This document shows, in pieces, positions 1 through 59,100 of a DNA stretch of 64,000 bases. Both the position numbers and the translations under genes were made by a program. The notes below the pieces were generated by a model that searched no databases, was not told the origin of the DNA, and saw only the letters and a list, made by a program, of their open reading frames with translations. Each line of letters starts with the position of its first letter. Position 1 is the stretch's first letter. This stretch comes from Agelas oroides (lineage: Eukaryota; Porifera; Demospongiae; Agelasida; Agelasidae), in the NCBI GenBank assembly GCA_949130485.1, contig OX422184.1, positions 24,422,917-24,486,916 of the forward strand. Direction: 5' to 3'.

Positions 1-392
1 AGACCAGAGGAAAGATTGAGAATGTAGTGGACAATGAAATGGGATGAGGTAGGCAATGAACAGCTTCTGACTACACTTTTCTGTAGAATCATGGCTGGTA
101 GCAGGTTGCTGAGGGAAGACAGCACCAGTGGGGTGTGGCTGATGTTCATACGATGCGGGTCAACCTGCCACTGGTTGATGGGGTTTGCATGGTACTTGGT
201 TGCTAGCTGTACATGTTCAGCCGATAGCTGTACCATGGGTAGCATCAAAATGCACACAGATATGAGGAGGGCGTTTCCAGGGGTCACATGACCCAGTTGA
301 CATTGGTAGCTGTGGTACTTGTACTGCTGTTGCCTTCGGTAGGCCTTCTTTGTGTCTGTCTGAACTTTCCGGTGCCCAGTAGTGATTAGCAT
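1..392 (-). CDS. Leader exon of Death/SH3 gene family, copy 0 (partial, runs off the left edge)
   Basis: The minus strand is open from an ATG at 390-392 to the window edge (130 codons). It begins MLITTGHRK directly after a TTCAG splice acceptor. It aligns without gaps to the leader exon of copy 1 (21568-22036), with about a dozen amino-acid differences and no stop. The 2A motif that ends this exon in copy 1 would lie just outside the window. A hydrophobic segment near residues 40-58 (GNALLISVCILMLP) is conserved. A probable 5'UTR exon ends at a GTGAGT donor at 558/559. The function of the leader is unknown. I infer that another Death/SH3 gene copy continues to the left. Confidence 0.6.
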   Translation of the reverse strand, partial: MLITTGHRKVQTDTKKAYRRQQQYKYHSYQCQLGHVTPGNALLISVCILMLPMVQLSAEHVQLATKYHANPINQWQVDPHRMNISHTPLVLSSLSNLLPAMILQKSVVRSCSLPTSSHFIVHYILNLSSG

Positions 393-9807: not shown

Positions 9808-12800
9808 CTATGTAATTGGAGTACGCTTGTTTGTCTTCTCCCTGCGGTGCTGGGAATACCACTCTGCGAAGGCGTACCAGTGCTCCTTGGAGTAGAAGTG
9901 AAGCTTTGTGTTCAGACCTTCTGGCTGCAGGGTGCGATACTGGATCTGGGTGGAGGGATTGGGGGGGGAAGGAAGGGAGGGAGAGGAGAAAGCATCAGAT
10001 TTTGGATTGAAATAAAGGGAAGAGGGAAGGGGTGGAGGGAGGAGGAGAGAGAAGGGCAGGAGGGAGTGAGAGGAGAGAGGGGGAGAGGAGGAAGGGGGAA
10101 GAAGGGAGAAGAGAAAGTGTTTGCACAAACACAGTGGCGGATTTAGGGGGGGTAAGGGGGGTGCAAATGCACCCCCCTTTGGTGGCTAGTAGTGTATTTT
10201 TGCGGACATAACGGCACGAGTCCAACAACCAGGCACAGTTACACACGTATCAGTTCTAGTCTCGTGAAGCCAGACTGTGTGAGAGTCTGGCTCTGCAAGA
10301 CTATATCAGTTCCTTACTGATCTCCAGACGTTTGACTAGGCGTAGAGTTGTTTTGAGATATTCAGTTCGGACTTCCAGCTATTTTAAACAACTCACTAGC
10401 TAGCTACCAGTCAGTACTCAATACTTCAATACTCAGGTCAGACAATAATTATGTGTGTCATGAATGCATTCACGTGACCAGAAGTGGGCGTGGCAACCCA
10501 AAAATTACAGGTGCGCTTCGCGCGCCAGTGGCTTTCCAAATTTCTAAATCCGCCACTGAAACACACACAGACACACTCACTATCTTCTTGCTGACTTCAA
10601 GGTCCAGCATGTCAGGGTTGGAGACAATGGAGACTCTCACATACCACTCATGAGCGTCAGGAGAATTGTACTTTAGCTCCACCTCCAGTGGAGAGAGCTT
10701 GTCTGAGGCAGTGATGGGAAGGGATCGAGGGAGAAGGAAGGAGGCGGGAGTGAGGGTGAGGGTGAAGGGTGGAGGGATGAAGGAAGGTAGGGAGAGGGAG
10801 TTGAAAAGTTAGGGAGGGAGAAGAGAGGGAGGGAAGGAGAAAAAAGAGGAAACAACAGCAGATAGTGGCGTTGTGTTCTCCCCTATGTTTTACTTGGTCA
10901 CAGTGTACAGGTACATGTAGTAGGAAATGTTTGTGAACTGGACTTGTCAGTCGTCACCAACTCACTCTCTGGTTTCTCAAAGAGTCGGTGAAACAGGTGA
11001 ACCATCTCCTGACAGAGATTGCGAGACTTCCCCACGTACTTCTTACGCAGCTCTGTCTTGTGTATAAACAGGTACAGTCCACACTTGGTGGACTGGAAGG
11101 CTGTGAGCTGCATACTCATCTTCTTCACGAGGACACCCTCCACGCTCGGCATGAACCAACCAGATTTCTCAATGAATTCCTCCATTGTGCGGTACTTGCC
11201 TGGCCTATGGTATATGTCTGGTCTTTCATTGTGATGTGAGGGGAGGGCCTGAAGGAGGGAGAGGGTGGGAGAGAAGGATGGAGGGAGGGAGAGGGTGGCA
11301 GGAAAAGGCGGAGGATGGAGGAGAGAGGGAAAAAGGGAAGGATGGGGGGAGAGGGAGGGAGGGAGAGGAAGGGAAGAAAGATGGAGGTGAAATTAAAGAG
11401 CTGAGAATGAAGAATCTCAAAAACTAGAAATTGAATCAAGAAATAGAACGTAATATACTGTATGCACAGCAGAAGGCAGAGAAAAGAGAAGAAGAAAGAG
11501 AGGGAGGGAGAGAGGAAGAGAAGAAAGAGAGGGAGGGAGAGAGGAAGAGAAGAAGAAAGAGAGGGAGGGAGAGAGGAAGAGAAGAAGAAAGAGAGGGAGG
11601 GAGAGAGGAAGAGAAGAAGGGAGGGAGGGAGGGAGAGAGGAAGAGAAGAAGGGAGGGAGGGAGGGAGAGAGGAAGAGAACAAGAGAGGGAGGGAGGGAGG
11701 GAGGAAGAGGGAGGGGGAGGAAATGAGAATACCTCCTTAGGCAATGGTGCTGGTGGGCGAGAGTCAATGTCAATGGAAGGGGGTAGAGATAGATCAGTGG
11801 AGGGGGGAGGGTACGAGGAGGCCAGGAGAGGGGAGTGAGGTGGTCCGGGTGATGCTGGCTCATGGGAAACACTTCTCAGCACAGACTTGTGGAAGGGAGG
11901 GGAGGGGGTAAACCTGTGATGGGATGGAGGGGGAGGAGGGAGGAGGAAGACAGTAGTAGTTTGATGTAACACTGTGAAAACTGGATAATTAGAAAGAATG
12001 ATGGAACCCTCTGCGACTTGTTGCGGTGGTGATTAAAGTAGTGCATGGTAGTATTATCAACATACATGTACATGTACCACTAGCACAACAGAACTGCAAA
12101 CCCTATCCCTAGCCTTCCTCCGTGGCCCTAACTAGTTTTTGAAATTATTTATAGTACGTATATGTGGCAGTCCCTGGTAGAAATCGAACATTATTCCGTT
12201 GTGTATACCACATTCAAAGCGCTGTAGCACAGAACTTCCGTTAAGGGCGGGGCTCATACACGCAGCGAAGATGCATGAATACCTGATAAGTCTACGTAGC
12301 GCGTATGAGCTCCACCCTTAACGGAAGTTCTGCGCTACAGCGCTTTGAATGCGGTAACGCGGTCAAAATATGCAACGGATTAATGTTAAATTTCTACCCG
12401 GGACTGCCACATATACATGTAGTATGACAAGAGTGCATAAGAACGGGCAGCTAGAGTAAGAGTGTGTAACTCCGTTAAATTTGAAACAGATCGGAATTTA
12501 CCAGTAGTACTAAAAATAGTAACACGTAATGCATGCTGGTAGACATAAGCCATTGTTGCTAAGCACGGTGTTCTATTTTTAGTACGGTTCAATAATTTTG
12601 ACCGGACTACGGACTTCTACATGTATTGGAGTTACACACTCTTACTTGAGCCGCCCACTCTTATGTGCTGTTCGTATGATTAAAACTGGAGTGCATACTG
12701 CAAGTGATCAAAAACTGAAGTCAAGGAAGGCCTGGGAGTGAGGCTAACCCACTGGTGGTGTTTTGATGCAAGCAAATCCTAATAAGCACATCCAAAGTTC

Positions 12801-15800
12801 AATGGATCAAAGCGTTAATTTGCACACCATCAAATCTATATCAATTTCACAAAAAAAAAACATTTTTTAGCAGCCAAACTGACTGTCAAAATTTGTGAAC
12901 CTAGTGTAGCGCACACAGGGCAATACAATTCCTTGAATGCTGCCATCTGATTGGTCAGAATAGTATGTACAAGATCTTGGTTAATTTGCACACCATCAAA
13001 TCTCTATCAATTGGTAGCGACATCTCAGCAACATAAGGCATGGGCGCTTATTAACAGTTAATGCCTTAAATGCAAAATTTAATAACTCAAAAAAAATATA
13101 AACACAATAGACACCAAACTTCACAATGTACTAATTTATGAGGCCACGCCCACTATAGTGATCACGTGACCTTTACAATGGCACCAGTGATGGTCAAGTC
13201 AATTTCAGCCAATAAACATTATTAGCAGCCAAATCAAGCAGCCAAACCGACTGTCAAAATTTGTGAACCTAGTCTAGCGCCCACAGGGCAATACAATTCC
13301 TTGAATGCTGCCATCTGATTGGTCAGAATAGTATGTACAAGATCTCGGCACTTGGTTTATCATCATTCTAAGACAAACCTTGGTAATGATTTTGAGAGGC
13401 TGAGAGGATTTGCTGGTTTTGCTGGAAGAGGAGGGGGAGGCAGATTCCCAATGTCTCTTGGTTTGGGGGGGATGGGAGGTCGTGACGCTTGGGATGGTGC
13501 AGGTTGGTATCTGGGGGAGGTGGGAGTGGGTGGGGTGGTGGGGGTGTGAGGGGTGGCCTTTGGCGGGTGACTAGGAGGGGAGGTGGGAGGGTGGGAGGAT
13601 GGAAGGAGTGAAGCGGGAGGGTGTGAAGGGGGTGGGGGTGTGGGTTGGTTGGTGAGGGAGTGAACCTGAAGGAGACAGAAAGAAACTACCACTAGTTAGA
13701 TCAATTTATACTTGCATTTTACATAACTATAACATACTGTAGATCGGGAAATTTTCGCCGTTAAAATATTTACAAGTACTGTAGATTGGGAAATTCTTGC
13801 TGTTCAAATATTTTCGCAGGTGTGCGGGAGCGATGAAAATTAAACACATGATATGTATACACGCTACATTGCGTAACCGTCGAGATATTTTTAACTAAAA
13901 CGTGAATTATTTTTACTGCGAAAAATTTCCCAATCTACGGTAGTCAAAAACTATTAGCATATGACATACCAAGAGCGCATGATGACGTCATAAAAAATGA
14001 CGTCATTATGCGCTCTTGGAGATACCATTACCATGTTCTTTAGTCTTGTGTTCCCAGACCCTCAGTACAGCACACGGGAGTCTTGCTGAGGGTATGGGAA
14101 CCAGACTACACGTTCCCCTACCTCTCTCTCTTTTCCTCACCTTAACTCTTTAGGGCCGAAACTGCGCATGCGCAATTATTGCGCAATGCCGAAGTTAATC
14201 TCGTGGCTAGGAAACGCGATGTAGTAGTCTGAAGATTTCGCTCTCGAGCAAGAGCTGGTCTAAAGTTGAATACACAGAAAGGTACCTACGTGATCGTAGT
14301 TTATTACTGGAGCGACGACTGGAGAGAAAACGCGGCATTAACGCCAGAAGGAGGGCTGAAACAGGACAGCGATAAAAATGGTGAGTTTGGTGCATAGGCA
14401 AGTTATTTTATTTTTAATATAAGCACTGATACGGCACATTTTGAATAAAAGAAACATACACGGTCATGATTCTAGTAGTATGTAGTATACACACACACAA
14501 AAAGAAGTGTTTAGTGCTGGGAGGAGTGCCAGAGACTGTAGCAGTCCGAGCCATCATCGAGTCCAGATAGGCAGAGGGGAGGCTGGCCTTCACATCCAGG
14601 GCAATACCAAACTGTTTCTCTCCTCTGAGTAGGGCGCCTGATTTTACAACAGTACAAACACCTAGTGCTTTTTGCTTTGCGTGGGAGATGGCTCAATAAT
14701 GCTCTCTGCTGTGATGACTCTCCAGTACTAGGTAGGGGTGGCAAAGGGTGAAGTCTGCGACGACCTAGTCTCACCCTGCTGCAGTAGCTGCCTATCAGTT
14801 GGCTTGCGAGCTTCAGTCTGAAATTCTTCAGGCTTTGCTTACTGATAGGTCCAGGGTTGGTAGTAATGGCATATCGGGACAAGATGTGGGAATTGGTCAC
14901 TACTACGTCAAAGAGAAACCAAAACACGTACTTATAGAATTTTCTTGACTTGAGCCTGACGTGGTAGTATGACCGCAATTGATCACCACGATCTACCCCA
15001 CCCATGTACTTGTTGTATGCAACAATGGAGCTGGGACAGTCGACTATCAGAGTTGACCCATCTTTTTGTTTCCTTTTCACAGGATGGGAGATGTCAGGGT
15101 CACTCATGGTAGACAGTGCACTGACAATCTTCTTGTCCATCCACACTGTGGCGACAATGCTCCCTGTTTGCCGAAAAAGGAACTTTCCCTTCTCAAGGCT
15201 TACCCCTCTGAGATCAACAGGAAAATTTCTGCGTGTGGTGAGGATGGTTCCACAGGCATACACCTTTCGCTGGAGGAGGGAAGAAAACAGGTCAACTGAA
15301 GTGAAAAACCTGTCACAGAAGACCTGGTGGTTGAGACCGGATATGTTACTGGTGAGTTTGTGAACCACTCTTTCACCTAGATTGTGCTCTGTTGTGGTAT
15401 CAGCCTTGCCTGTGTACACTTCAAATTCACAAAAGTAGCCATTCCAGGAGTCCGCCCTTACCCACACTTTGAAGCCTCGCTTCACAGGCTTTAGTGGAAC
15501 GTATTGTTTGAGGCTAGAGCGTCCCTTGAAAGGAATCATGGCCTCATCAATACTGTTCTCCCGATTTGGCCGATAGTTGTCAATGCATGCTTTGTTGATG
15601 GCATTGACAATTGGGAGAATTTTCTGAAGTCTGTGGTAGCCTTCATCCCCACGAGCAGGCAGAGCATCATTGTCAACAAAGTGCAAGTAGCGTGCGATCT
15701 CTTCGAATCGATCACGTGCGATGCGGTCTGCGATTGGTGAGTAATGAAGGGAAGGATCCTTTGCCCAGTAGTCTCGGATTTCTGGAAGCTGGTTGATGCC

Positions 15801-18800
15801 CATCAGAACCATAAACCCAAAGTAGGCCTTTAGCTCCTCTATGCTGGTCTTCCATTCACGTTGGTTACTGCTGGGCTGTCGGGAGGCAAACTGGGCTGCA
15901 TAACGATTTGTTTCCTCGACTATTGTTGTCAGCAGCTCATCGGTAAAAAATGAGGAAAATGTCGTCATAGGGTCATCACAAATGTAGCATGATGGTCCAG
16001 GTGATCCAAGGAATGGCTCAACTGTTACTGGGGTAGGATCCTTTGACCATACATAGTCTTCCTTCTCAGTCCGTGATCGCTTTGCAGGAAGGGTCGATTG
16101 ACCTTTGCCTTGCCCAGTCCTCCGCTTCCCCCTTTGACCACGCCTCGGCCGGTGCACTTTGGAGGTACCTACAAATTTATGGAAGTCTGAAATACCACTA
16201 CTCTTGGTACACAATGTAAAACCCCACCTGGAGTAGTAGTAGAAGCTTGATCTACTCCCTGACTTGTGCCATCTGGCTCCTCAGTTTCACTCTCCTTGTC
16301 CGAGTCCAGTGCTGCATTAGAATGTTTGTTTTTGCCAGACACGTACGTACGTATGCTTATACTGATTCTGTAGTTCTTAGTTCCTTACACTGTCGTTCGT
16401 TTTGTTCTTCTTCTGCAGGTCCAGGGCTGGTGCAGAGCAGGCCACCGACTACTGTAGTTGTAGAATGCAAGCAGTACTCATGTTTTATTTATCATAATTT
16501 CCATTTTTGCAACCTTACCGTCGTCATCTTCATTGATCTCAATCTCATCATCAAATCCCAAGTCATCATCACTTCCATCCATAATAATTTCATCCAAAGC
16601 ACTCTCCTCTCCACAAAAAAAGCTAATCACTTCATTATCTGTGTAGTGTAAACTTGCCATACTTGCCTAAGCACTTGCTAAATCAGCCTGAGGGAAGCCC
16701 GTTATTACTGACTGTACCCTGTGTTGATAGCAGCTGCATACTACCCCCGCCAGGAAGATTGTGACTACGGTTGACCGCCTTGGTAATTGACAATGGAATG
16801 TTATGAATAATATTACCTAGCCACGTTCCACTACTTGGACTGGAGCCATGAAAGGTGAGTCTTCTACAATAATGCGGATATATCCGCTATCGTCGTTCGT
16901 GTGTACCGCAAATTGCGCGGATATATCCGCTATCGGCCCTAAAGAGTTAAGGTGGTGTACGATGTCCCTCCCATCCTCTCCCTTACTCACTCCTTTTCCT
17001 CCCTTCTTCCCTCCCTCTCCTTCCCTTTCATCCTCCACTAAAGTGATGTCCTTCTGTTCCTGTAGGTCCTCCCACCCTCTCCCCTCTCCCCTCCTCTCTC
17101 ACGCCCCACTCTCCTACCTGCACAAAAGTAATGGGGATGATGCCCCTCTGTCCCTGCGAGTTCTCGGCGAGGTACCAGAACAGTCGGTTCGATGGCTCCA
17201 GAATTGTCAGTATCTCACCTTTGTGGAATGGAAGGTCATGGGAGTACTTCCCTGTGTGTGTGTGTGTGTGTATGTGTGTGTGTATCACATGTAGAGTCAC
17301 TGTGCATAAAGTTGTGTGGCTAGTACAGGCTATATGCTGGGAGATGGACAAAAGAGTGTCTAGTAGTCTAGACCTTGAACAACCTGTCTCTCGTGCCGAA
17401 GATTGTGTGCGTTCATTATGCGTACATATTTGTGAGTGAGTAATCTGAGCAATCTTCGAATGCACAAAACCTCATCATACTTTTTGCAACGTTCGACCCC
17501 GAGGGGTCTTCTTCAGGCAATACAAGACTGGAGACACGCTTTACAAAATAGACCAAATAAAAATGCGTGTCTCCAGTCTTGTATTGCCTGAAGAAGATAC
17601 CAGAAATGAGGTCTGTCTGATCACATGAGCTTGACATACGTACCATTGAAGTCTTTTGTTGCTGTGCAGGTGGTATAGGCAGGGACTGGATTGTTCTGTT
17701 CATATTGAATCTCATTTTCACTCAGCGAGGGAGCAGTCGCCATTAGTGACCTGCATACAGAGAACGGGGAGGGAGAGTGAGGAGTATGTGATTATTAACC
17801 TACACGCACTCTGTTGAAGAGACAGGGGTGAGGTAGACATCCTGACCATCGATGGTCACTGCATCAATGCTGCGCTCCTTGAAGAATTCGGTCTCAATGT
17901 TTGCCAAGTTCTGCTGCAGCAGTGTGGCAATGGAGGGAGAGGTGAGCCATGTGACACAGACACACCCCTTCTCAGCCTTTTGGAGGAGAATGTCAAATTC
18001 TGGTAGGAAGAACTTGTGGATGAGAGCTTTCTTAAATGATTCCACATCTTGTAATGTGCACTGGGACCAATCATGCCGCATTTTGACCACTACTTTCTTG
18101 AGACTGTCTTCTGGTGGTCCATCATCCCTGCATGGCCAACTCTCAATGAAGTCACAGAGGCGAGTTCTCTGCTTGAATGTGGAAAGCTCATTGATGTAGT
18201 CCTGCATCTGTTCTTTCAAGTCTTCACTTCCAAAGTTAATGATAACATGTTCCAAAAGTCCATAGTTCAGAAAGTCCCAATAGAGATTCAGAATACACCA
18301 GATGTTCACTAAAGTTGCAGATGGTGGAATGTTGGCCAAATTGTCCTTGATAAAGCTTCGGTGCTGAGTACGGGCTGACACAGGTAAGCATGTGACACAG
18401 GAAAGGAAAACAGATGGCTCCATTTTCCCATGCATCTCTTGGTAGGCCTTGTCAACAAGATTGTGAAATTTCTTCTCAAACTTTTCAACTTGCTGTTCAA
18501 CAGGATGTGTATTTGCAGGACCTAAATGGATGGAGGATCAGTGTAAACTGGTTTTCTACATTTGTGCTTTTTACTATTATTAAATGAATATTGAACTTTT
18601 ACCAGTACCTAAAGTCATGTGTCCCTACATACCTGTGTGTTCTGGTGGGGGAGTCGGAGGTTGTGGAGTGGGAGGTGTGTCAGGAGGAGTGGAGTCAGTG
18701 ATGAGGGAGAGGGGAGAGGACGGTGGTACTGGATGTGGCAGCGATGAAGTCATGAGTGTTGGTACTGAGTATGAGGAAGTGACAAGGGTGGGGGCAGGTG

Positions 18801-21800
18801 GGACGTGGAAGTGTACGGTTGGAGGTGTGGCAGTGTAAGCTGTTGCAGATGGAGGTGGAGGAAGGAGTTGAGCAGACATTTGGTAGCCATTTGGTGGCGG
18901 GTAGTAGTGAGGGGCAGACCAAAGTGGGGAGTGGGAGGGGTGCGGCTGTGGTGGCATAGAGTATGGGGGGAAAAAGACGGGTGGCTGTGAAAGGGGATCC
19001 ATGAACTGTGGTAGTGTAGTCTCCAGGATATGAGCTTGTGATGCAGCTACAGATACAGGATGGTGGGTGGCAGCAACACTAGTGTCTTGAGTTGAACAGT
19101 ACTTCTGTTCCAGGTCTGCTGCCAGTTTAGTTTCACCCACAGTGTCACTTCTAAGGGCATCTACAACGTTGCTCCACACAGGGTGTGGTGGGTAGATCTT
19201 CAGCCACATCTTTAGAGTTTCTCTCAGACAATCAGAGGGGTTGCTGTACTGTTCCTTGATAGCATCCAGTCCGTTGAACCTCACTCGCAGCATCATACCA
19301 ATATCATACCACTTCACACAGACCTTGTTCAGCTCTTCCATTACCACAGGCAAGTCAATGTCACTCAGCTGCTGACCTGCAAGTTGAGAACGCAACATTG
19401 TATCTGTGTTGAGATGGGCGATACAATACTACAATTATCAATACCACCAATACCAATATCGTATCGATACTGGTTCCTCACAATTTTGATACGATACTTA
19501 GCCTCGTTCCCAGGCGCGGAGGAGGGGGAGGAGAAAGAGCGCCTGGTACACACTGTTTGTGTATGCGTGTAATTATTGACAAGGCCACGTGGTAAAATTA
19601 GGGGCGTGTACTAATATGATGATCAACGGTTCATGTGAATAGTCATAAAAAATACCTCAGCTTTTGTTCTTAGGACGCTATAAACATCGCTGCTACATGC
19701 TCTACCTAGTTTTATACTGTCGGATACAAAGAGAAATGTCTGGTAGGCAGTGGTAGGAATCGACTTACCGGAAATGGTGGATAACCGTAAAAAGGTACGT
19801 TTACTCGGTAAACGCACTCATTGGAGGCAACCTGTTCTTTCTTGAGCTTTATCTCAAGGTACCTAGCTACCAGAAGGCCTAGAACAGCGCAATATAAAAC
19901 TCACTCGAACAGAACACCAACTGGCACATCAATACGGCGAGTTTATGACGTCACTAGTATACGTACGTACACGTATGAACACGGTCGCCACGGAATTCCG
20001 TGGCGATTAAACGCATGCGCAAACAGTGTGTACCAGGCGCTCTTTCTCCTCCCCCTCCTCCGTGCCTGGGAACGACGCTATACGATACTTGGTTCACATG
20101 GTTGATATGGCACATTTCACAGCCGGCAGGTAATGGTAACATGAGCGGTGACAGAGGGCCTTGTGAAGAGCACTGCTCGAAAGTATTTTGGTACTGCAAC
20201 CTTAGATTTTGGGAGGGGCCAGTATCATTTGGTATTGTAACACAATGTACTCAGTATTGCATCGAATCGCCTGTATATATACTGCAGTTGAAGTGCACAC
20301 TGTAAAAAAAAATAGGTTACTTTAACCATATCTGTAGGTTATCTCAGTTGCACCAGAGTGATAATGTATGTATACATTATCAGAAGTCCCAGGAATGCTT
20401 CTAAAATAGGTTATTGAAATTCCATTCAAGAGCTTCTTTTTTAGTTTCTTCTATCAGAAGTCCTATTTGGCTACATTACTGGCACTTCTATCAAAACTAT
20501 GTCAAGGCCGTAGACAAGTGAGTGCTTGGGGGTGCTGAAGCACCCCCAAATTTTTGGCATTTGTATTTGAAGGATATAGCACTTAGCCACAGCACACAAC
20601 TGCTTATTATGCGCAGTGAAAGTTAGCACCCCCAAACTAAAAAGCTTGTCTACGGCTCTGTGTAACCAAGCCCTTTCCAGAAATGCTAATTGATAGGTGT
20701 TTGGAAAACAAGACTGGTTTAATTAAAGAAGAAGCTTCTCAACGTTTTTATTTCAAGGTCTTCAGAAGACCTGTTTGGAAGCATTCCTTGAACTTCATGA
20801 TGTGTACACCACACATGCAACGGGTGTCTCTAATCGCTGGACTGGAATATGGAACGAAACGATGGAATGGAAAATGGAATGGAACAGTGAACATACACAG
20901 TTATAGCTAACTCGTGTAACTGGCACTGCTCAGTCTAGGTTGAACTACATAGTGTATCTCTAGGGCTGTTATCTCACCGCAGAAGCTTTATGAGCAAGTA
21001 CGGCATTGCCCACCGTCATGCTTCTATATCCAAGTATGGTACCGTTGCTGGCTCATCATCAGATGCTTTGTTATTGCAGTCTTGCACAGCCAGACTCTCG
21101 AACGAAAGACAAGGGTCTGGGCTTGCAAGACTATAGCAGTATATTTATAGTCTTCGTGGACAAACTTGAATGTGATGGCAGAAATTAGCGCTCGATCCTC
21201 AGTCTCTTCGCTTCGGTCTTTGTCTGTGCAACTTGATCCTCGGTCGCTCCTATGTCTCACAACCTTAGTAGCAGTATTCCTTGACAGTAGTAAGTGTGGC
21301 TCCTATGCATGGTACTAGCTGTAGCTAGTCTTCGGGGACCCGAGTACGAGTTAGCTGTAACTACATACATTCACCGTTCCATTCCATTTTCCATTCCAGC
21401 GATTAGAGACACCCCATGCACATGCAACTGAGATAACTGAAATATGGTTGAAATAACCCAAATGTTTTTACAGTGTATAACCTAAACATTTTTACAGTGT
21501 ATATGGTACTGCCCACCTCTATCATTGTGATAGACAGCCTTACATCATTCTAACACAAATAACTCACCAACAGGCCCTGGGTTGGTCTCAATGTCTCCAC
21601 TCAGCAACAGCAGGAGAGAAAACATCACTCCCACCATTCTCCCAAGACCAGAGGAAAGACTGAGAATGTAGCAGATACTGAAGTGGGATGACGCAGGTAA
21701 CGAACAACTTCTGACTGCACTGTTCTGTAGAACCATGGTTGGTAGCAGGTTGCTGAGGGAAGACGGCACCAGCAGGGTGTGGCTGATGTTCATGTGATGA

Positions 21801-22036
21801 GGGTCAACCTGTGACTGGTTGATGGGGTTTGCATGGTACTTGGTTGCTAGCTGCACATGTTCAGCTGATAGCTGTACCATTGGTAGCATCAAAATGCATA
21901 CAGATATGAGGAGGGCGTTTCCAGGGGTCACATGACCCAGTTGACATTGGTAGCAGTGGTACTTGTACTGCTGTTGCCTACGGTAGGCCTTCTTTGTGTC
22001 TGTCTGAACTTTCCGGTGCCCAGTAGTGATTAGCAT
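9808..22036 (-). CDS. 2A - Death domain - SH3 - proline-rich protein, copy 1 (complete)
   Basis: Ten coding exons: 22036-21568, 19376-18633, 18521-17804, 17750-17644, 17251-17118, 13665-13379, 11874-11733, 11248-10966, 10702-10581 and 9945-9808. All splice in phase and total 3144 bases (1047 aa). Order: leader (1-137) with a hydrophobic stretch; 2A (LLLLLSGDIETNPGP, ending near residue 155); Death domain (about 157-250; KWYDIG, CLRETLKMWL, LRSDTVG, LEQKYC); Pro/Ser linker; helical domain (about 420-640; NLYWDFLNYGLLEHVI) of a type I recall from cnidarian and sponge signalling proteins; SH3 (about 672-724; DLPFHKGEILTI, GQRGIIPITFVQ), closest in my memory to CSK; PxxP-rich stretch (RPPIPPKPR, RPPAPLPK); C-terminal 180 aa I do not recognise. 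Ribosome skipping at NPG/P would release a leader peptide and a cytosolic Death/SH3 adaptor. A 5'UTR exon near 22197-22228 precedes it. No kinase domain follows the SH3. Confidence 0.83.
10132..10558. mobile_element. hAT-like MITE (copy 1)
   Basis: The ends are CAGTGGCGGATTTAG and its reverse complement, a terminal sequence typical of hAT-derived MITEs. The same element is at 22903-23358 in copy 2, so it predates the duplication. A small TAGTCTCG-type hairpin (10257-10306) is nested within it. Confidence 0.75.
12160..12415. mobile_element. Palindromic MITE (copy 1)
   Basis: TATGTGGCAGTCC at the left pairs with GGACTGCCACATA at the right. The inner arms (CATTCAAAGCGCTGTAGC) also pair, so nearly the whole 256 bases can fold as one hairpin. 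It is present in copy 2 at 25298-25552. Confidence 0.75.
12428..12673. mobile_element. CAAGAGCGC-family MITE, copy 2
   Basis: The same element as at 5503-5758, with a somewhat diverged right end (TGCTGTTCG). It is adjacent to the palindromic MITE and shared with copy 2 of the locus (25565-25816). Confidence 0.8.
12873..13346. repeat. Internal direct repeat of about 120 bases, copy 1 only
   Basis: A stretch containing GACTGTCAAAATTTGTGAAC and CTGCCATCTGATTGGTCAG occurs at about 12873-12978 and again at 13240-13346. Copy 2 has it once (26218-26300). It lies in an intron, just beside the proline-rich exon. Confidence 0.75.
13736..13943. mobile_element. CTGTAGAT-type MITE (copy 1)
   Basis: ACTGTAGATCGGGAAATTTT at the left is mirrored by AAATTTCCCAATCTACGGTA at the right. 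The equivalent in copy 2 is 26698-26903. Confidence 0.7.
13970..14018. repeat. 49-base near-perfect palindrome with CAAGAGCGCAT ends
   Basis: CAAGAGCGCATGATGACGTCA reads into its own reverse complement after a short A-rich loop. Its ends match the CAAGAGCGC MITE family, so it is probably an extreme deletion derivative. Copy 2 does not have it. Confidence 0.75.
14146..16946. mobile_element. piggyBac transposon, apparently intact
   Basis: The 2801-base element is flanked by TTAA on both sides (14142-14145, 16947-16950). It has 14-base terminal inverted repeats starting CTCTTTAGGGCCGA. Copy 2 carries the unoccupied site, a single TTAA at 27030-27033 in otherwise matching sequence, which proves the boundaries. 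The insertion is in the intron between the SH3 exon and the proline-rich exon of copy 1 and postdates the duplication. Subterminal palindromes near the right end (CGGATATATCCG at about 16876 and 16919) may bind the transposase. Confidence 0.95.
14511..16660 (-). CDS. piggyBac transposase
   Basis: Four exons, 16660-16519, 16412-16389, 16311-16228 and 16168-14511, all join in phase 1 and total 1908 bases (635 aa). The acidic N-terminus (DGSDDDLGFDDEIEI) is followed by a basic stretch. The DDE_Tnp_1_7 core shows candidates for the catalytic aspartates in SIDEAMIPFKG, VFCDRFFTS and YMGGVDRGDQL. The C-terminus has a cysteine-rich zinc-binding tail (CLYCC ... WYCPGC ... PLCL). Length and order match functional piggyBac transposases, and no disruption is visible. 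The 24-base second exon is unusually small but has good splice signals on both sides. Confidence 0.92.
19499..20080. mobile_element. TAGCCTCG-type non-autonomous element, 582 bases
   Basis: The left end is TAGCCTCGTTCCCAGGCG and the right end is its imperfect reverse complement (CCTGGGAACGACGCTA). The 9-base target duplication TACGATACT is at 19490-19498 and 20081-20089. It is inserted into a dispersed repeat (about 19405-20250) that recurs near 43925 and 63130. Confidence 0.88.
20298..21475. mobile_element. CACTGTAAAAA-ended non-autonomous element with nested hairpins
   Basis: The ends CACTGTAAAAA and TTTTTACAGTG are followed on both sides by a similar block containing AACCATAT and GTTATCTCAGTTGCA. 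No convincing gene is inside. Within it are a 150-base inverted-repeat element (20507-20656, ends GCCGTAGACAAG) and an inverted pair of GGAATGGAAAATGGAATGGA blocks (about 20826-20892 and 21378-21415). It lies in the intron between the 2A exon and the Death exon. Confidence 0.7.
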
Positions 22037-22580: not shown

Positions 22581-27960
<5,380 letters not shown>

Positions 27961-28003: not shown

Positions 28004-28310
28004 TTAACCTACACGCACTCTGTTGGAGAGAGGAGGGAAGGGGTACCTACACGCACTCTGTTGGAGAGAGGAGGGAAGGGGTACCTGTATGCACTCAGTT
28101 GGAGAGAGGAGGGAAGGGGTACCTACACGCACTCTGTTGGAGAGAGGAGGGAAGGGGTACCTACACGCACTCTGTTGGAGAGAGGAGGGAAGGGGTACTA
28201 GCATGCACTCTGTTGGAGAGAGGAGGGAAGGGGTACCTGCACGCACTCTGTTGGAGAGAGGAGGGAAGGGGTACCTGCATGCACTCAGTTGGAGGGGGAA
28301 GGGAAGGAAG
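28004..28310. repeat. Minisatellite with a 38-base unit, about eight copies
   Basis: The unit contains CGCACTCTGTTGGAGAGAGG and then AGGGAAGGGGTAC. It derives from the exon/intron boundary seen once in copy 1 at about 17795-17830. Each unit therefore repeats the sequence around the splice donor of the helical-domain exon. It marks the point where copy 2 stops matching copy 1. 28338-28437 beyond it is CA-rich low complexity. Confidence 0.9.
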
Positions 28311-28530
28311 AGCCAAAGGGCAGGGTGATATTAACCTACACCTTACACTAACATACACACATGCACACACGTGACACACGCACGCACGCATGTGTACATG
28401 CACACACACATGTGTACATGCACACACACACAGTCTTGAAGAGTGGAGGAGAGGGACAATTATTAACATCCACTACTCCTCTCCAGCTTCTCTGTACATT
28501 ACGTCACCAAACTGAGGAACCTGGAACAAG

Positions 28531-32107: not shown

Positions 32108-42284
<10,177 letters not shown>

Positions 42285-50100: not shown

Positions 50101-53100
50101 TGGACTGCGTGGGCAATAATTCGATTATCAAAACCACACATAAAACCACACATAGTACGTCACGGGGCACGTGATCAGATCGTCCAGGCTCTCTCCCCGC
50201 TTTTCGGCATGGGGAGGAGCCTGGGTACGAGGCTACGTCTCTCCTGGACCGCAGACTCTTCTGGCCGCGCCAGAAGGGTGGGGTCTAGACTATTCAACGT
50301 CACATTGAGCTTCCGGTTTGTGTGCATTACGCGATAACATTTACTGGAAGTTGCTATCGCGTGTAGCCCGAGCGATCAACCCTGGCGTGATCTACGGGAA
50401 AACGTGACAGTGTCGTATTGGAGAGAGCAGAGGATAGATGGTACACACTGTACTCAGGCTCCACTGCTATAGGCTAGCTATGCAAAGTTGGCAGCAGTTA
50501 CTGAATTTACCCACATTGTTGTTTTGCCTGTTCAACTTTTCACTAGGCTGTAGTGTTGGCAATCCGAGAATGTGAGATTGCCAATGTGCTATATACGACT
50601 TGCTATAATGACCACATCAAACTTAGCAGACCGGTACATGTCGGTAAATCTAGGAATTAAATTTATGAGGCCTTACATGTAGTATTGGGCATAATTTGGA
50701 TTTTTTCTCTAGAAGGGCACACCCCAACTCCCCTCTCTACCAGACATGCATGCTTACAATTTGCTATAATGAGTGAATTATTAAGATAAGTTTGGGTTGA
50801 AATGTTGCCCAAAATAAGTATTCATAGTTGCATAACTTGAGGAGTTGTCTGCAGCTAGCCAACTAAGCCAACATTTGCAAGCCAAGATGCTGTTAGATTA
50901 TTTATTTATATTTCGGAGGCTAATCGCACCCCAAGTGGAACGAAAACGGTGACTTGAATGCAGGTGTCTTGAATGGAGGTGGAAAATCAGCTTGTCCTGC
51001 ATAATAAGTCATTAAGCTAACCCACTAGCTACACATAGTGTAGAAGCCTAGCTAGGTTGGGGCAAAAGTGGAACAGGGATCGAACAGGGAATCAAAGTTA
51101 GGTGACCAATTCAGCTCCTAATAATAAGCATGGCCATTGCGTGTAGAGTGAAGAGAGAAGCTAACTTGACTTGCTATTGCATGCAGGTGCTAATTGGTGG
51201 TAATTGAAGCTATGTAGTAGAGGCGAGATGATAAAAGCCACCTTCTAACACTGGGCAGAAGGTGACCACGCTACTATTGTGTGAGTTGTGTGGGAGCTAA
51301 GAACACTATGTGGAGGCGGCTTTTTAGAGACATCTGTCTGTTGTAAAAAAGTGCCGTTGCCACCAAAAGCAATGTGGATGCATGGGATGTGTTGTAGTGC
51401 AGCAAGCCAGTAGCTAAGTGTGCACTTCACACTGAAGTGTCAAAGGGACTTGTAGTTCAGTTTGGCTGTGCTGTATCTGTAGTCTGCTGAAAGTTGTAAG
51501 CTAATAGATGTAGCTTGTTGACAATGTATCTACCTTAGCCTTTATACAAGGCTCCAGAGACTGCATGAAGTTTGTGCCATCACTGAAGTGTCAACGTTTT
51601 TGATTGTAACTCAGGTTAGCAGTGGTTTAGAAACCCCCTGGATATTCTCATCTTTAGCAAATGTAAGTACCTTCATGTGATGGCTAATTTGGCCACTGTA
51701 AAATCCTGTGTCACTGTAGATACAGTCGAATGTTGATGGCAAATGTTGGGCCCTATGCAATCGTTGTGGATTAGCTCTCAATCTTAGTGCTTGCACAGTA
51801 TAGATACCATGGTAACTGCTTCAAGTTGTAGTGTCAAACTTCAGTAAGTCCTCTCGGGCTGGGAAACACTGAAACATTGGTTATGCATGTGCACTTTTGT
51901 AGCTTTCGTTCAATACATATTTTTCTTTCCACTTGGGTTGTAATTCTTTTTTTTTTTCACTGTGGTTGGGTAAAGGCCATGGCTACATATTTCCTAATTC
52001 TATGACTCACACACATTGTATGCATCTACCAAACCTGCAGCTAGCAGCTATGGCAAGGATTTCTTCATTGCTGTTCCTTCAACCTTTCGCTTTGGTCTGA
52101 CACCTCAGCTCATCATTGGAACATTTGCAAGTAATGCCAGTTACTCAGTGGAAACTGCTGCAGGAGTGATTGAGACAGGAAGCGTGAACTTTGATAGTCC
52201 AGCTACTGTTACTTTCAGTACTAATATCTTAGTGGCTGGGAGTGAGTATGCACATCGGCAGAAAGGAATACATGTTCGAGCAACAGGAGTGGAGTCTATT
52301 TTCATTCTTGTCACTACCAGCAACATATTAGGTTTCGGGGACTACCTTGCTTATCCCTGTCAGGACTTTGAAACTGACGACTACGAGTACTATGCTGTTT
52401 CAACGACCTCCACATCTTTAGGTTTCCGTAGCCAAGTTGTGCTAGTTGCTTGTGAAGATGATACTGAGGTCACAATTACACCGACTGAGACTGTCAACCT
52501 CCCTAATGATGCCCAGGATTCAGATAGCAGTCTTATGGACATTCTTGCTGGGGATAATCACACCTTCATCATCAACCAGATGCAAACTCTCCTCATTTCC
52601 ACAACGGGTGCAGACCTAACTGGTTCCAAGATTGTTTCCAACAAGCCACTGACAGTTATCAGTGGACATCAATGTGGTAATGTACCAGAATCACTTAATT
52701 TCTGTGAGCAGCTAGCTGTTCAGGTCCCTCCTACTTCAACCTGGGGAAGTGAGTTTCTCCTTGCTCCATTTACTGGAAGGACGAGTGGACAATACTACAA
52801 GGTTGTAGCTTCCAGCAATGCCACAACAGTAGTCTACAAATGTGGAACGTCTAGTCCAATAGGCACTGTTCTAACAAACCCTGGACAGTCGTTCCTCTTC
52901 AGAACTGAGTCAACAGACCACTGCTACCTGTTTACCAACAAACCAGTGTTAGTGGTTCAGATGGCCACAGGGGGATCTGTAGATAATCTTGGAGACCCAG
53001 TGATGGCGATTGTCCCTCCAATTCCTCAGCATGTTAGCAGTGCTAGCTTCTTATCCCTGCAGACAGTCACTTTTGAGACCCATGCCATCTCGGTTACTGT

Positions 53101-56100
53101 GGCAAAAGAGCATTTCCGATCACTTGACATTCTCTTCGATGGTATGCCCATGAACTGCATCTGGAATGAGATAGTGAACCTGGATGACTGTGTTGTTGGC
53201 TTTGGCTGCAACATGAATGTCACTGCTGGCTCTCACATTGTATCCCACAGTGCTGAAGGTGGACTGCTGTCTGTGATGGCCTATGGATTTGACAGCACTC
53301 CCTTACAGGGATATGCATACACTGCCGGGATGAATGTTCAATTAAGAGAACAACCTGTCAATGAAACAGGTACCTATTGCGATCTTAACTCCTACTTCTC
53401 TGATGATGTTACACACAGTTGTCTGTCTCTGTCATATTCAGGTCCTGATGTTCCTATCGTTGTGCTTCCAGAAGTCGTTCGTTACTTTGATTTAGAAAGT
53501 TTCCCTGGTGTGGCTGAACTGAGGAGAGAAAAGGATGCCAACTCAGAACCCATAAACATTCCTCTTGGTCTCCTGTTTGGAGATCGTATTGTGGCAACAG
53601 CTTATGTAAGTACATTGCAGGATGCTGTTTAAATTAACCACACTACAAGATCCTCATAGAGCCAACATGTGGCCCGAGAGTTTAGTGCGTAGCTGGCAAG
53701 TGTCCACTGTATTTTTACTCCTCTAATGAACCTTCACCATTTCAGTGGCCCATGTGTTGCTTACTAAACCACTATATTATGCACAAAATGGGTCTTTGTG
53801 TTGTCAAACTTTTTCCCTAGGTAAGTGAAAATGGTGTCATTTCTTTTGATTCTGAATGGAAGTTTGCCCATCCCAGTCGTTTTCCAACTGACTATTTCTA
53901 CACTCGTAATGCATATGTTGCTGCTCCATTCTGGAGTGATAATGACATTCGCAAAGAAGGCACAGTTCGTTACGTTGCCATTGAGGAAGGAGAGAGTGCT
54001 AGGGGTGATGAGATGCTTAAAGAAGCCAGCAGTTTTGTTCAAGGTCAGCGTCGGGAGAATGATACAAGGGATGAGTTCAGGGGGACGTGGATGCTGGTGG
54101 CCCAGTGGGACCATGTCCATCCTGACCCCCATGGAGCAGATGACCATATGGGCATTCCTGAGGCTCTACTGGAACGGGTAGGTAGTGTAGATTTGTGTGT
54201 GACTAATGACTCTGTTGATGAGCTGAAGTACTTTCCTATCACAGACTAACACCTACCAGGCAGTCATCATTACTGATGGTGTATTTTCCAGCACCTTGTT
54301 CACGTATACATGTGGTGACCTAGAATGGAGTACAACAGGAAACAGGCCGGCTGTTGTGGGGTACAATGCTGGAGGGACTTTCTTTGAGAACCATCGCTCC
54401 TCTGGTTTTGATACAGTTGCCAATGATGTATCTTGTGTTGTTGAGCTGAGACGGTCCAAACGGCAGGTTGGTGGCATGATGCCGAATACTGACAGCATGG
54501 AGATTGATATAGATGAAATCCTAATGCAAACAACTGGTGAATGCCGAAGACATTATACACTTGACACCCAAGTGATTCCTACAAATGCATTTCCTAATCG
54601 GGTTCTGCCCTGTCCCTCTTCCCTCAGCCAAGTCAGAAATGATCCACGCTTTATGAGGGATAAACAGTTTAGGGATACAGCGATGTGCTACCTCCAGAGA
54701 TACCCAGTTTCTGGAAATACTATCCTTGAAAACCTCAATACTGTTTATGGACAACAATGTTGCTATGATGGTACTGGGTAAGTTACTATACTATCGCTGT
54801 GTAGATATGAGCACTTTGATTGATAGCCTAACTCCAATACTCTAATCTCCTGAAAATATGCCCACCCTTGAAAATAAACCCACCCCTTTTTTGAATGCAT
54901 GAAGTTGTTGCAAAGGGTGCTTTTCTCTTGAGAGTATGCCCACCTATTTATGCCACAGTACACGCGGTTATGTTAAGCAAGAGGCACCAAAGAAGCAGGA
55001 CTGTGCAAGAGGAGGGACTAGCAAATGAAGGCAAACACAATTTGTTGTCATTGCATAAGCAAGTGCATGACAAAATTGGCATTGCTGAATCACTGCATCC
55101 ATACAGGGCTAGACTGTGTGTGAGGTTGGCGTATTTCGAGACAACTCTCGAAAATATGCCCACCCCCTCTTTGAAGAGCCACTAAAGTTCATCACCCACT
55201 GAGTTTACCCCTGATCTGTTTACTGCAGTGCTCTTTATACTGGAACATCTCCTCCTAATGCTGGAACACTACTGATCTATGAACCGGTAGTAGTAGTACC
55301 AGATTTAAATCATGACGATAAGGTATTCTACAAAGATTGCTGCTCTAATGTGGATGTCCCTGGATGTGAACTGTTCTATGTACGTCGCGCTCGAGAAACC
55401 CTTGAGCAATACTCACCACCGTTCTGTTGTGGTGAGTCTAAAACCTGTCAAATGGATGTATCTACATGGTAATGACACAGCACTAATATATTTTCACAGC
55501 GTATGGTACTGGAGATCCACATTACAAAGATGTTACTGGTCGTGTTTTTGATTACCACGATGAAGGAGAGTTTCTCCTAATAGAGATAGGTCCAGAACGC
55601 AGCCAGCTACAAGGTGTCCTGAGCAGACTGGGTAGGTCAACTAGAAGTGTTGCTGTGCACAGGTCTTTTGCTTTTGGAGAACCAGGAAGATTTGCCTACC
55701 AGGTAATTCAACAAGTAATTTTATCACATTCTTCAGTCATCATAGTGCTGTAGTTGCCAAATACATATGGATAAGTACACTGTTTTTCAACTATGGTTTC
55801 ATTTAGGAAAAGGGCAAAATGTGGGTAGGTATTTTACCCAGGTAAAAGAAATCGGCATCTTACTAGCAAAAACAATGAATATCAACAGTGTGCATATCAT
55901 TATTACATCTCAAATCTTCATTGTGAAGTCATGAATGGCATAGCAATTAACAGCCATTCACTGTCCTATTAATCCAAAATTGCACTCGAAACCATGCTGT
56001 CATTTATACTAAGTGCTCAATGTCTTGTGTAACCCTGAAGCCACTATGATACTAAGTAAAGGTACCTCTGCATCTTAAGGTTAGTTTTTATGTGTACATT

Positions 56101-59100
56101 CTACATTTCATTTCAATGTATACCTCTTTTACTTCAGATGGTGAACCCTGTGAGTTTTCAGTTTATACTGCTAAAGACTCAAGGAGAAGGGACGGAGAAT
56201 GGTCCAATTGATATTTTGGGCCAACTTGGCGTGGGAATGACCTACACAGACAGTACAAACAGACTAAGCATAACACGTACCGGGCGAACGAGAATCTCAG
56301 TCATTTTCAACAGTGGTCTCTTCTTTGACCTCAGTTGGCACTCTATTTATGGAAATGTTCAAAATGTCAAAATTCTCAAGAGATATGTCCCTACAGGCGA
56401 ATCACGTGGAATCATGGGAAGTACCACATTTGGAAACTGTAAGTTACTAGGTATTAAGTAGAATAGTGGTTGAACACTTAGTTGTGCAATGCATCTAATC
56501 TACATTTGCATCTGGTATACCTCATGCTCTTACAATTTGATACCAGGAGTCAGCAATTGGCTCTATTCTTTCTTCTAGGAGTCAGAAATTCTTTCTTCCT
56601 TTTTAATTTGCAGGGAGAATAGGACAAGAACAAAGTATGTTTGCAATCCATCGTCCTCCTGATCGAAAGCGTCGTCAAGTTAGTGGGCCCTCCTTAGACT
56701 TCATCTTTCCCGATCCACCACAACCGTTTTCAGTTGACAGTCTCAACTACACAGATGAGCAAAGGGAGTTCTGCAATAATCTTCCAGAGTGCATGTTTGA
56801 CTTACTCTTTACTGAAGATACAGAGATTGCAGGAAACACCATGGAGGCTAATATGGAGGCTACAAGACAGGAAATTGAATTGAGTAAGGAAGTTGTGCTT
56901 TACATTGCTGACCTGGAAAGTGATATATGGGTTGGGTTAGTCAACACTCTTCATTGTCAGAAGAATCATTTAAGAGTACACTAGCATTATTCATGTTCTG
57001 GTTACTGTTCATTAGGACATTACAGCTCAGGAAAGGGCTACTTGATGGTAACAATACTCAGCAACGATTAATTTAGTCTGAATTTTGTCCCAATAGACAA
57101 CTTCCCACCAAACATAAGTGGAGACAGTGTATTCAATGTGACTGTGGGCCAGAAGGCTGTATATACCTTCACTGTGGTGGATGAAGGGGATACATTCACA
57201 GTAGAGGTTGTAGGGGGAATTCCTGAAGGAGCTATTTTTGAGGATAATGGTGAAGGGGAATACACCTTCACCTGGAACTTGGAGGTGATCACAAACCGAT
57301 CGGATGTTCCTGCCTTGGGTTTCCGAGCAACAGATTCTGGTGGTGCTGTCTCACTACTGACTCCACAGCTAGTCGTGTGTCCTTGTACCAATGATGGAGA
57401 TTGTACCCTGAGGGGAATTCTCAACACTGCACTTCCTGTCCTTATCATGAACTGTATTTGTCCTGAAGGCGAGTGAGCCAGCATTTGTATACAATTGTAT
57501 GAGTTATGAGTCAACAAAATGAATGCAATATTGGTACAACATGTACAAACAATGCAGTTGCTATACCTTCTGTACTGAGAAGGGTAGATTGAAACTTTGC
57601 AAGTAATGGAGTGCGTTGCAGTTTTATGTATCTACTCCTGAAATACTACCAAAAGTCTACCACTTGTACATTTTTCAGCATATGGTGGAGACTTTTGTGA
57701 GGAGGATCGCAATGGATGTTCGGAGATCCAGTGCTTTGAGGGAGTGGAGTGTCTGGATGTACCAGCACCTGGTGTGGGAGCAATGTGTGGAGTGTGTCCC
57801 AATGGCTACACTGGAGATGGAGAGAAGTGCTTTGGTAAGATTTTGGACTTGACTACTTTGTTTGGTCTGTTACAGTATTACTTCAGTCCTTCCTCAATAA
57901 CCTACAGATATTGATGAGTGTGAAATGGACGTGACTCTGTGTGAGCAAATCTGTAACAACACTGTTGGAAGCTATGAGTGCAAATGTGAAGACGGGTATC
58001 AGCTTGTGGCAGGAACTAACCAGTGTGCAGGTAAGATGGGAGTAACTTACCAAACTTTTATTTCATTGGCTTTTCAGTTGGCTCCTGTGTAACTGACAAA
58101 GAAAGTTTCCTGTTACCAACTTGAAATTGGATACTTTTGCTGGCCTTTCGATTGAATGCTTCAGTCATCATCAGGACAAAAGTTAAACAAGTGTGAAGTC
58201 TTATCACCCTTCTTCACCTTTGCCCTGCCACAAATTTACAAAATATTAGGTGTTGAAACTTTTTTCATCATTTCCTCATGTGCCTTAATTTGCCAGTGAA
58301 GTACAACGGTACACTGCATGCACAGCAGCAAAACTTGGAACACTTACTAGTAGAGTTTTTTCCTTTGTCAGATGAAACTAGGTAGTATGTAAAATATTTT
58401 GACCTTCCAAAAAGGGGAGTTCATGTGAACTCTCTGGAACCTCCCCTCCATAATGGTGGTGTTACCAACAGCAAAGATCAAAATTGTGGTGGCTATTTCA
58501 GTCAGGCTTGGTTCCAAGTACGAATTTCCCAGCTAAATTGCCACAGGAAATCTTCAACTTTAAAATAATGCTACATTCTTAACAAACAGATATTAATGAG
58601 TGTGAACTCAAGGAAGTCAATGACTGCCAGCAGGACTGCACAAATACTGTCGGCTCTTTCACCTGTGGTTGTCAGGCAGGATTCACCTTGAATGCTGACG
58701 GAAAGAACTGCGATGGTAGGTACAATTGCTCTAATGAATAGTAGAACTTGCATGCACTGTGAATTTTTTTTTATTGTTTTCACATTAGCTGATGTTCCCT
58801 GTGCTGATAACGGTGGTTGTTCTGGCAGTTGCGCAGTCATTGATGGAGTGGAGCAGTGCTTTTGTCCTACAGGCTTTGTTCTGAACAAATTTGACGAACA
58901 GACATGTGTTGGTAAACTTTGATTCTAGTTGAGATCCTAAAAGAATGAGGGCTGGAATAGTGTTACAAAATTCTGTAATTTCAACAATTATCTTACCAAC
59001 TTACCTCTTGATTGTGTATAGATAACGATGAGTGTATACCCACAAACCCCTGCAATCAGACCTGTACAAATACTTTTGGATCCTTTGAATGTTCGTGTGC

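Follow-up and report, generated by a model that had tools for sequence, protein, structure and literature searches.

Peptides of the ribosome-skipping 2A (StopGo) type are said to occur mostly in viruses and seldom in cellular genes (PMC12846837). The cellular system closest to the one considered here is that of the sea-urchin (S. purpuratus) NLRs. Of these NLRs, 85 of 241 are stated to have a 2A, a 26-residue N-terminal 2A is present in 14 of 87 later NCBI entries, and recoding is put at about 80% as a qualitative estimate (Roulston et al. 2016, PMC4981915). Here we describe a related arrangement in a sponge, Agelas oroides. The window, as we call the whole stretch of DNA analysed, comprises 64,000 nucleotides (assembly GCA_949130485.1, contig OX422184.1, positions 24,422,917 to 24,486,916 of the forward strand) and contains a gene whose apparent first coding exon encodes a leader peptide ending in a 2A motif. 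Judging from sequence comparisons, this exon probably opens the coding sequence of an NLR-type gene family expanded in tandem and is spliced in phase to a Death domain, and skipping would yield the leader and a separate cytosolic Death protein.

As in the sea urchin, a 2A core and a hydrophobic tract stand ahead of Death-NACHT-LRR receptors, in many copies. Unlike in the sea urchin, where the signal is the 26-residue 2A itself (PMC4981915), the 2A here ends a leader of about 155 residues on an exon of its own, with an earlier hydrophobic segment; there is also a second leader family, found before Death and ankyrin sequences in the one locus read through, and one Death-SH3 chimera. That chimera is the window gene. 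A 2A in the N-terminal region of a Death-NACHT-LRR protein is found in the family (loci L041 and L059) and not in the window gene, which has SH3 instead of the NACHT and LRRs of an NLR. The core D(V/I)ExNPGP is shared with viral 2A, and its carrier differs in being a cellular, apparently spliced gene family (PMC12846837). Non-LTR retrotransposons (cited in PMC11512398) have the same core motif, and this genome holds transposon-like 2A elements too, with a different leader and a PHD-finger open reading frame (ORF) downstream rather than Death. Finally, the NLRD genes of the sponge Dysidea avara share the Death-NACHT-LRR architecture and form an expanded family (PMC12909245).

The exon occupies 22036 to 21568 on the minus strand. 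Its ORF is uninterrupted, begins with an ATG preceded by cctttcag, and closes with DIETNPGPV/G at the boundary CTGTTG/gtgagt; the predicted skip site lies between G154 and P155. Joined to the acceptor at 19376 (acttgcag/GTCAGC), it continues in phase. The D-x-E-x-NPGP codon pattern occurs once in the window, against a chance expectation of 0.00 in 100 dinucleotide shuffles. In the whole 259-Mb genome the same degenerate pattern occurs 286 times (159 + 127), while a backwards-pattern control gives 0, so the window copy is one among many.

A genome search with the leader protein gave 67 matches (66 distinct once merged), referred to below as class I. Internal stops are absent from 64 of them, and 62 extend to residue 156. 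The top identities are 100% and 89%, the latter belonging to a copy that leaves the window at its left end; the others are 62% and lower. The matches are often clustered, mainly on contigs C1, C2, C9 and C11. Thirty copies were fetched: a GT donor lies one base past the same codon in 27, Death sequence stands directly at that position in the other three (L013, L015 and L019), and an ATG immediately follows an acceptor-like AG in 25. By their match coordinates, leader and Death are contiguous in a single open frame in four copies (C1:4632, C2:25968863, C2:25918312 and C11:2376787). Because the two abut in frame there, the predicted leader-Death splice is supported independently of RNA. A database protein, P0134 (1 of 106 relatives of the Death exon), also passes from leader to Death, across an apparent short unspliced intron. 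Pattern, junction and paralogues agree with an earlier sequence-only reading, which proposed that an exon in a host gene closes with a full 2A and splices in phase to a Death domain; this exon looks like the first coding one. The leader exon is real. Its frame, motif and paralogy can be read from the sequence, as can the constraint, the predicted Death fold and the chimeric structure described below.

The leader is also under selection. In 419 of 435 pairs, those with a synonymous divergence (dS) above 0.05 and below 1, the median ratio of nonsynonymous (dN) to synonymous divergence is 0.44, and it falls below 1 in 418, although the pairs are not independent. The pooled pN/pS is 0.54 for the whole leader and 0.26 for the last 22 codons (alignment columns), the 2A end. 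Among database relatives (120 listed of 569, the set used for all conservation figures of this leader), D[VI]ExNPGP is kept in 115 of the 120, and mean column entropy is 0.24 bit at residues 145-156, with other blocks at 0.79-1.57. This pattern of codon substitution shows purifying selection on the leader exon, strongest at its 2A end.

What follows the leader is predicted to be a Death domain. A Pfam search of the window's own Death exon gave no match; among its relatives L042 and L043 (44-45% identical) score above the Pfam Death cut-off and L040 (60%) slightly below it. The AlphaFold model of the window domain (pLDDT 93) has FADD and other death domains as its top matches (TM 0.75, probability 1.00), although the best Foldseek E value is 7e-3, with nothing at 0.001 or better. 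On the model, exon 2 is predicted to carry the six-helix Death fold. Compared with the next tandem copy, the exon has a dN/dS of 0.16.

For the genome-wide association, 100 listed motifs of the 286 and 150 scored Death hits of 687 candidates were used. A Death hit within 10 kb lies downstream on the same strand for 54 of the 100 motifs, upstream for 3 and on the opposite strand for 0. On C1 alone, 54 of 86 motifs have a downstream Death hit, against a random mean of 0.74 and a maximum of 4 in 1000. For class I leaders the figure is 53 of 67. Starting instead from the 150 Death hits, with 81 of the 85 class II rows and an incomplete set of motifs as reference, we find a leader or a listed 2A at most 10 kb upstream of 96 but not of the remaining 54.

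Two relatives were read at full length. L041 has the order leader-2A, Death, linker, NACHT, LRR, and L059 begins with a leader-like frame that is shorter but also has a 2A, followed by Death (below the Pfam cut-off), NACHT and LRR. Since these full-length relatives are Death-NACHT-LRR receptors, we regard the family as NLR-type. A Pfam NACHT scan (105 of 314 candidates scored) placed a hit within 20 kb of only 3 of 67 class I and 1 of 85 class II leaders, with a leader upstream of 6 of the 105 hits. Because it matched near so few leaders, a family-specific NACHT query was taken from L041 (103 of 299 candidates scored; some matches are two pieces of one gene). It gave 43 matches of at least 66% identity, 33 of which have a class I leader at most 12 kb upstream. 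For any leader or listed 2A, the figure is 37 of 43, against 3 of 61 for matches below 66%. Seen from the leaders, 32 of 67 class I copies have a close NACHT match within 12 kb. Eleven close matches begin at residues 159-162 of the 401-residue query, that is, without the P-loop part; they include the window's next tandem paralogue (L039, L040), and L040 has no Pfam NACHT. The sequence-only reading had likened the exon to sea-urchin 2A-NLR genes, and since this leader, in many of its copies, stands at the front of NLR genes, the resemblance is closer than it could know.

Class I is not the only leader of this kind. Among the 100 listed motifs, 19 belong to class I, 53 to class II and 28 to neither, and 6 of these 28 have a Death hit downstream. 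The class II leader (MGID..WRARIG..GDVETNPGPEG) has 85 matches, 80 of them distinct (150 of 200 candidates scored), and its 2A core is kept in 118 of 120 listed database relatives (of 507). The median distance from the end of its first hydrophobic segment to the Gly is 64 residues. A Death hit lies within 10 kb downstream in 41 of 81 tested class II rows, and one locus read through, L058, has leader, Death (Pfam just below cut-off), linker and ankyrin repeats. Aligned with hhalign, the class I and class II profiles match with probability 96.9 (E 1.9e-10, 82 columns, 28% identity, residues 84-156), most densely in the shared 2A and hydrophobic tract. A common origin of the 2A-proximal half of both families is possible on this alignment; we do not extend it to the whole leaders.

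A chosen sample of 14 further 2A loci comprised 6 of class II, 1 with another leader (L053), 6 with a PHD finger after the 2A and 1 (L057) similar by eye. The PHD-finger match is above the Pfam cut-off in L048, L049, L052 and L056 and below it in L050 and L051. DUF6570 is present in L049, and endonuclease-like sequence was seen by eye in L050. In L049 the 2A and the PHD finger are located at the front of the ORF with DUF6570, a Helitron-associated domain. The L053 leader (MPPNGPDEWRARIG..GDVETNPGPT) is of another kind, with no Pfam match. A genome scan for reverse transcriptase found none at most 8 kb downstream of the 67 class I leaders or of 20 other listed motifs; as it scored 150 of 2738 candidates (149 of the 150 listed places entered; no search of the window alone was made) and was zero near the other motifs too, it is uninformative.

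The anatomy of the leader suggests how it might work. The sequence-only reading had taken MVGVMFSLLLLLSG for a signal-like stretch. A hydrophobic tract does precede the 2A, with codon constraint across it, and its median Kyte-Doolittle value in database relatives is about 2.5. It is not the first such segment, however: another, no less conserved, precedes it at about residues 39-57. Of the blocks upstream of the 2A, 49-60 has the lowest entropy (0.79), with 97-108 (0.82) close behind. From the end of segment 1 to the Gly of NPG the median distance is about 105 residues (95-125 in 111 of 115 database copies counted, of the 120 listed). The exit tunnel accommodates 30-40 residues; for ribosome and translocon together the figure is 65-70 (PMC2978324). 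Given these capacities, segment 1 would already be engaged by the time the 2A acts, and segment 2 would not yet have emerged.

We therefore picture, from sequence and segment positions, the following course of events, in which splicing, start site, skipping and targeting are all inferred. Translation would begin at the ATG after the acceptor-like site, which would end an intron of the 5' untranslated region. Segment 1 would leave the ribosome well before the 2A and probably bring the leader to the membrane of the endoplasmic reticulum (ER). With segment 2 and the 2A core within the tunnel, the Gly-Pro bond would be skipped and the leader released; a Death protein starting with Pro would be made separately and remain cytosolic. 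Where skipping fails, in a minority of chains, the product would be a leader-Death fusion kept at the membrane. Skipping is supported by the presence of the motif, by its constraint and by the activity of the published urchin sequence. With a conserved earlier segment, the leader could be ER-targeted regardless of skipping, and targeting would not depend on skip failure. The sequence-only reading proposed a translational switch; what the comparisons show is constraint on the motif and no more, and such a switch, like a membrane fate of the leader, is hypothetical.

Several observations weigh against this scheme or parts of it. An ATG after an acceptor-like site is missing in 5 of the 30 copies (L023, L035-L038), and the intronless copies read NPGPV-LS or NPGPM-LS, without the GQQ of the window's predicted junction. 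C1 motifs shifted by 20-60 kb retain 8-18 Death associations, because the genes are clustered. With 103 of 299 candidates scored, 35 of the 67 class I leaders, including that of the window gene and every one of the 16 on C9, have no close NACHT match within 12 kb. Structure prediction for the leader gave a model of low quality (pLDDT 60), from which no fold can be taken. Activity of a 2A depends on upstream context beyond the octapeptide (PMC12846837), and some upstream sequences, if translocated, inhibit it or lower its efficiency (de Felipe 2010, PMC2978324), so an ER-targeted leader might skip poorly. Such an effect might also offer a plausible way to regulate output. Two other explanations of the leader have to be considered. 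If the 2A is active and the leader is merely a signal sequence, cells would use partial skipping to distribute each receptor over cytosol and secretory pathway, which is what has been proposed for the sea urchin. The combination of 2A and hydrophobic tract equals the design in PMC4981915, and the Kyte-Doolittle value of segment 2 given above fits this reading. The extra segment some 105 residues earlier speaks against it, and constraint spans the whole leader upstream of the 2A, exceeding what a signal would be expected to need; we hold this for possible and rather unlikely. Alternatively, the exon might derive from a non-LTR retrotransposon with a 2A, as a fragment of it or as its captured 5' end, and not work as a host exon; the sequence-only reading named a retrotransposon origin among the findings that would overturn it. 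The same genome does have transposon-type 2A elements (L048-L052, L056), yet they, 6 of the 14 sampled loci, bear different leaders, whereas many class I leaders form clusters upstream of Death exons, have their donor at the same position and in the same phase, and are constrained at the codon level. This origin of the exon is very improbable, even if the 2A itself may go back to an ancient transposon.

A further question concerns only the window gene, in which, according to the mechanism we favour, the downstream NLR half would have been replaced by a duplicate of the neighbouring SH3 gene. Compared with the two complete NLR frames (L041, L059), the window matches in Death and linker only, with no NACHT and no LRR. 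The gene is, by sequence, a chimera of an NLR front half (exons 1-3) and a tandem duplicate of the neighbouring SH3 gene, and both parts are likely to share one transcript. The "Death/SH3 adaptor" of the sequence-only reading describes this single member and not the NLR-type family. Its figure of exactly 1048 codons was not reproduced and is not diagnostic: the allowed splice-site ranges permit 72 in-phase completions, whose lengths run from 980 to 1103 codons without including 1047 or 1048. Could there be two adjacent genes, or a broken NLR beside an SH3 duplicate, rather than a single protein? Homology to the neighbouring SH3 block starts at 17822 (corresponding to 28031), from where the linker exon, as proposed, runs on for 18 bases, and the SH3 part contains an in-frame ATG of its own (MATAPS). 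Its 89-residue C-terminal block has two copies in the genome, both inside the window. The join of 17804 to 17750 is in phase, but unless the GT/gtaggt donor is used a TAG (17802-17800) follows directly, which makes two separate genes conceivable and counts against a single one. On the other hand, the frame is open up to that in-phase donor, and exons 1-5 join into 724 stop-free codons. The two SH3 copies differ over six coding blocks by 14 synonymous and 3 nonsynonymous changes (dS 0.072, dN 0.004, ratio 0.06); so few and mostly synonymous changes mean that, gene conversion aside, neither looks like a decaying pseudogene. This constraint holds despite the probable loss of the neighbour's promoter, as no more than 72 bases of the duplicated block precede the SH3 acceptor. 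Two genes are thus the less likely arrangement, though one to be taken seriously. The edge of the duplicated block is marked by a minisatellite (28007-28330) built from sequence around the SH3-gene intron start. An intron of the window gene holds an open 589-codon transposase frame (14511-16280, minus strand, Pfam DDE_Tnp_1_7), which contains an NPGP (14848-14858) without the D-x-E part.

Table 1. Features of the window connected with the leader gene and its SH3 neighbour
Feature	Position	Strand	Remarks
Proposed first coding exon	21568..22036	-	156-codon leader ending in 2A, then phase 1 splice donor
Hydrophobic segment 1	21866..21922	-	about residues 39-57
Hydrophobic segment 2	21596..21640	-	about residues 133-147, directly before 2A core
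2A core DIETNPGP	21573..21595	-	residues 148-155; codon-pattern match, pattern omits last base
Exon 2	18633..19376	-	predicted Death domain and proline-rich stretch
Exon 3	17804..18521	-	linker also present in NLR paralogues (73.5% identity with L041); its 3' end is the fusion breakpoint
Exon 4	17644..17750	-	SH3 block start, duplicate of 27852-27959
Exon 5	17118..17251	-	SH3 domain, Pfam SH3_1 above cut-off
Remaining SH3-half coding blocks	9811..13515	-	proline-rich and three C-terminal; approximate exon ends
Neighbouring SH3 gene block	22584..27959	-	other copy of SH3 half
Leader exon of next tandem paralogue	1..392	-	89% identical, continues beyond window into L039

Elsewhere in the window, exon-like frames on the plus strand resemble, by eye, a Polo-type protein kinase (33263-36180) and a large extracellular protein (IgG-Fc-binding/NIDO/AMOP-like, 51998-57473).

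Among the literature matches listed we found none on 2A leaders in sponges, and the word "sponge" is absent from the 2A literature whose text was word-searched; Rao et al. 2025 (Cell Rep, PMC12338488) and Odon et al. 2013 lie outside this coverage and may already report such genes. In the part of the Dysidea avara NLRD text covered by the word search (PMC12909245), "signal peptide" and "SH3" are absent; "2A" was outside that search. Set against the literature covered, the following appears to be new: the leaders greatly exceed the 26 residues of the urchin 2A, they have a separate hydrophobic segment that ends about 105 residues ahead of the predicted skip, and a second leader family exists.

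One speculative suggestion can be made regarding the purpose of such leaders. The two families, of about 66 and 80 distinct exons and alignable only over their 2A-proximal half, might be co-produced one-to-one with cytosolic Death receptors of NACHT-LRR, ankyrin or SH3 type. The leaders would then be membrane proteins with a job of their own, as partner, decoy or guard, and the timing of ER insertion relative to the 2A would set how much receptor is freed. At present this seems doubtful to us. Whatever the leaders do, the family supplies many natural variants for testing ER targeting against skipping. If our interpretation is correct, a large and constrained StopGo family stands ahead of Death receptors in a sponge, and the use of cellular 2A in innate immunity would be either ancient or repeatedly acquired.

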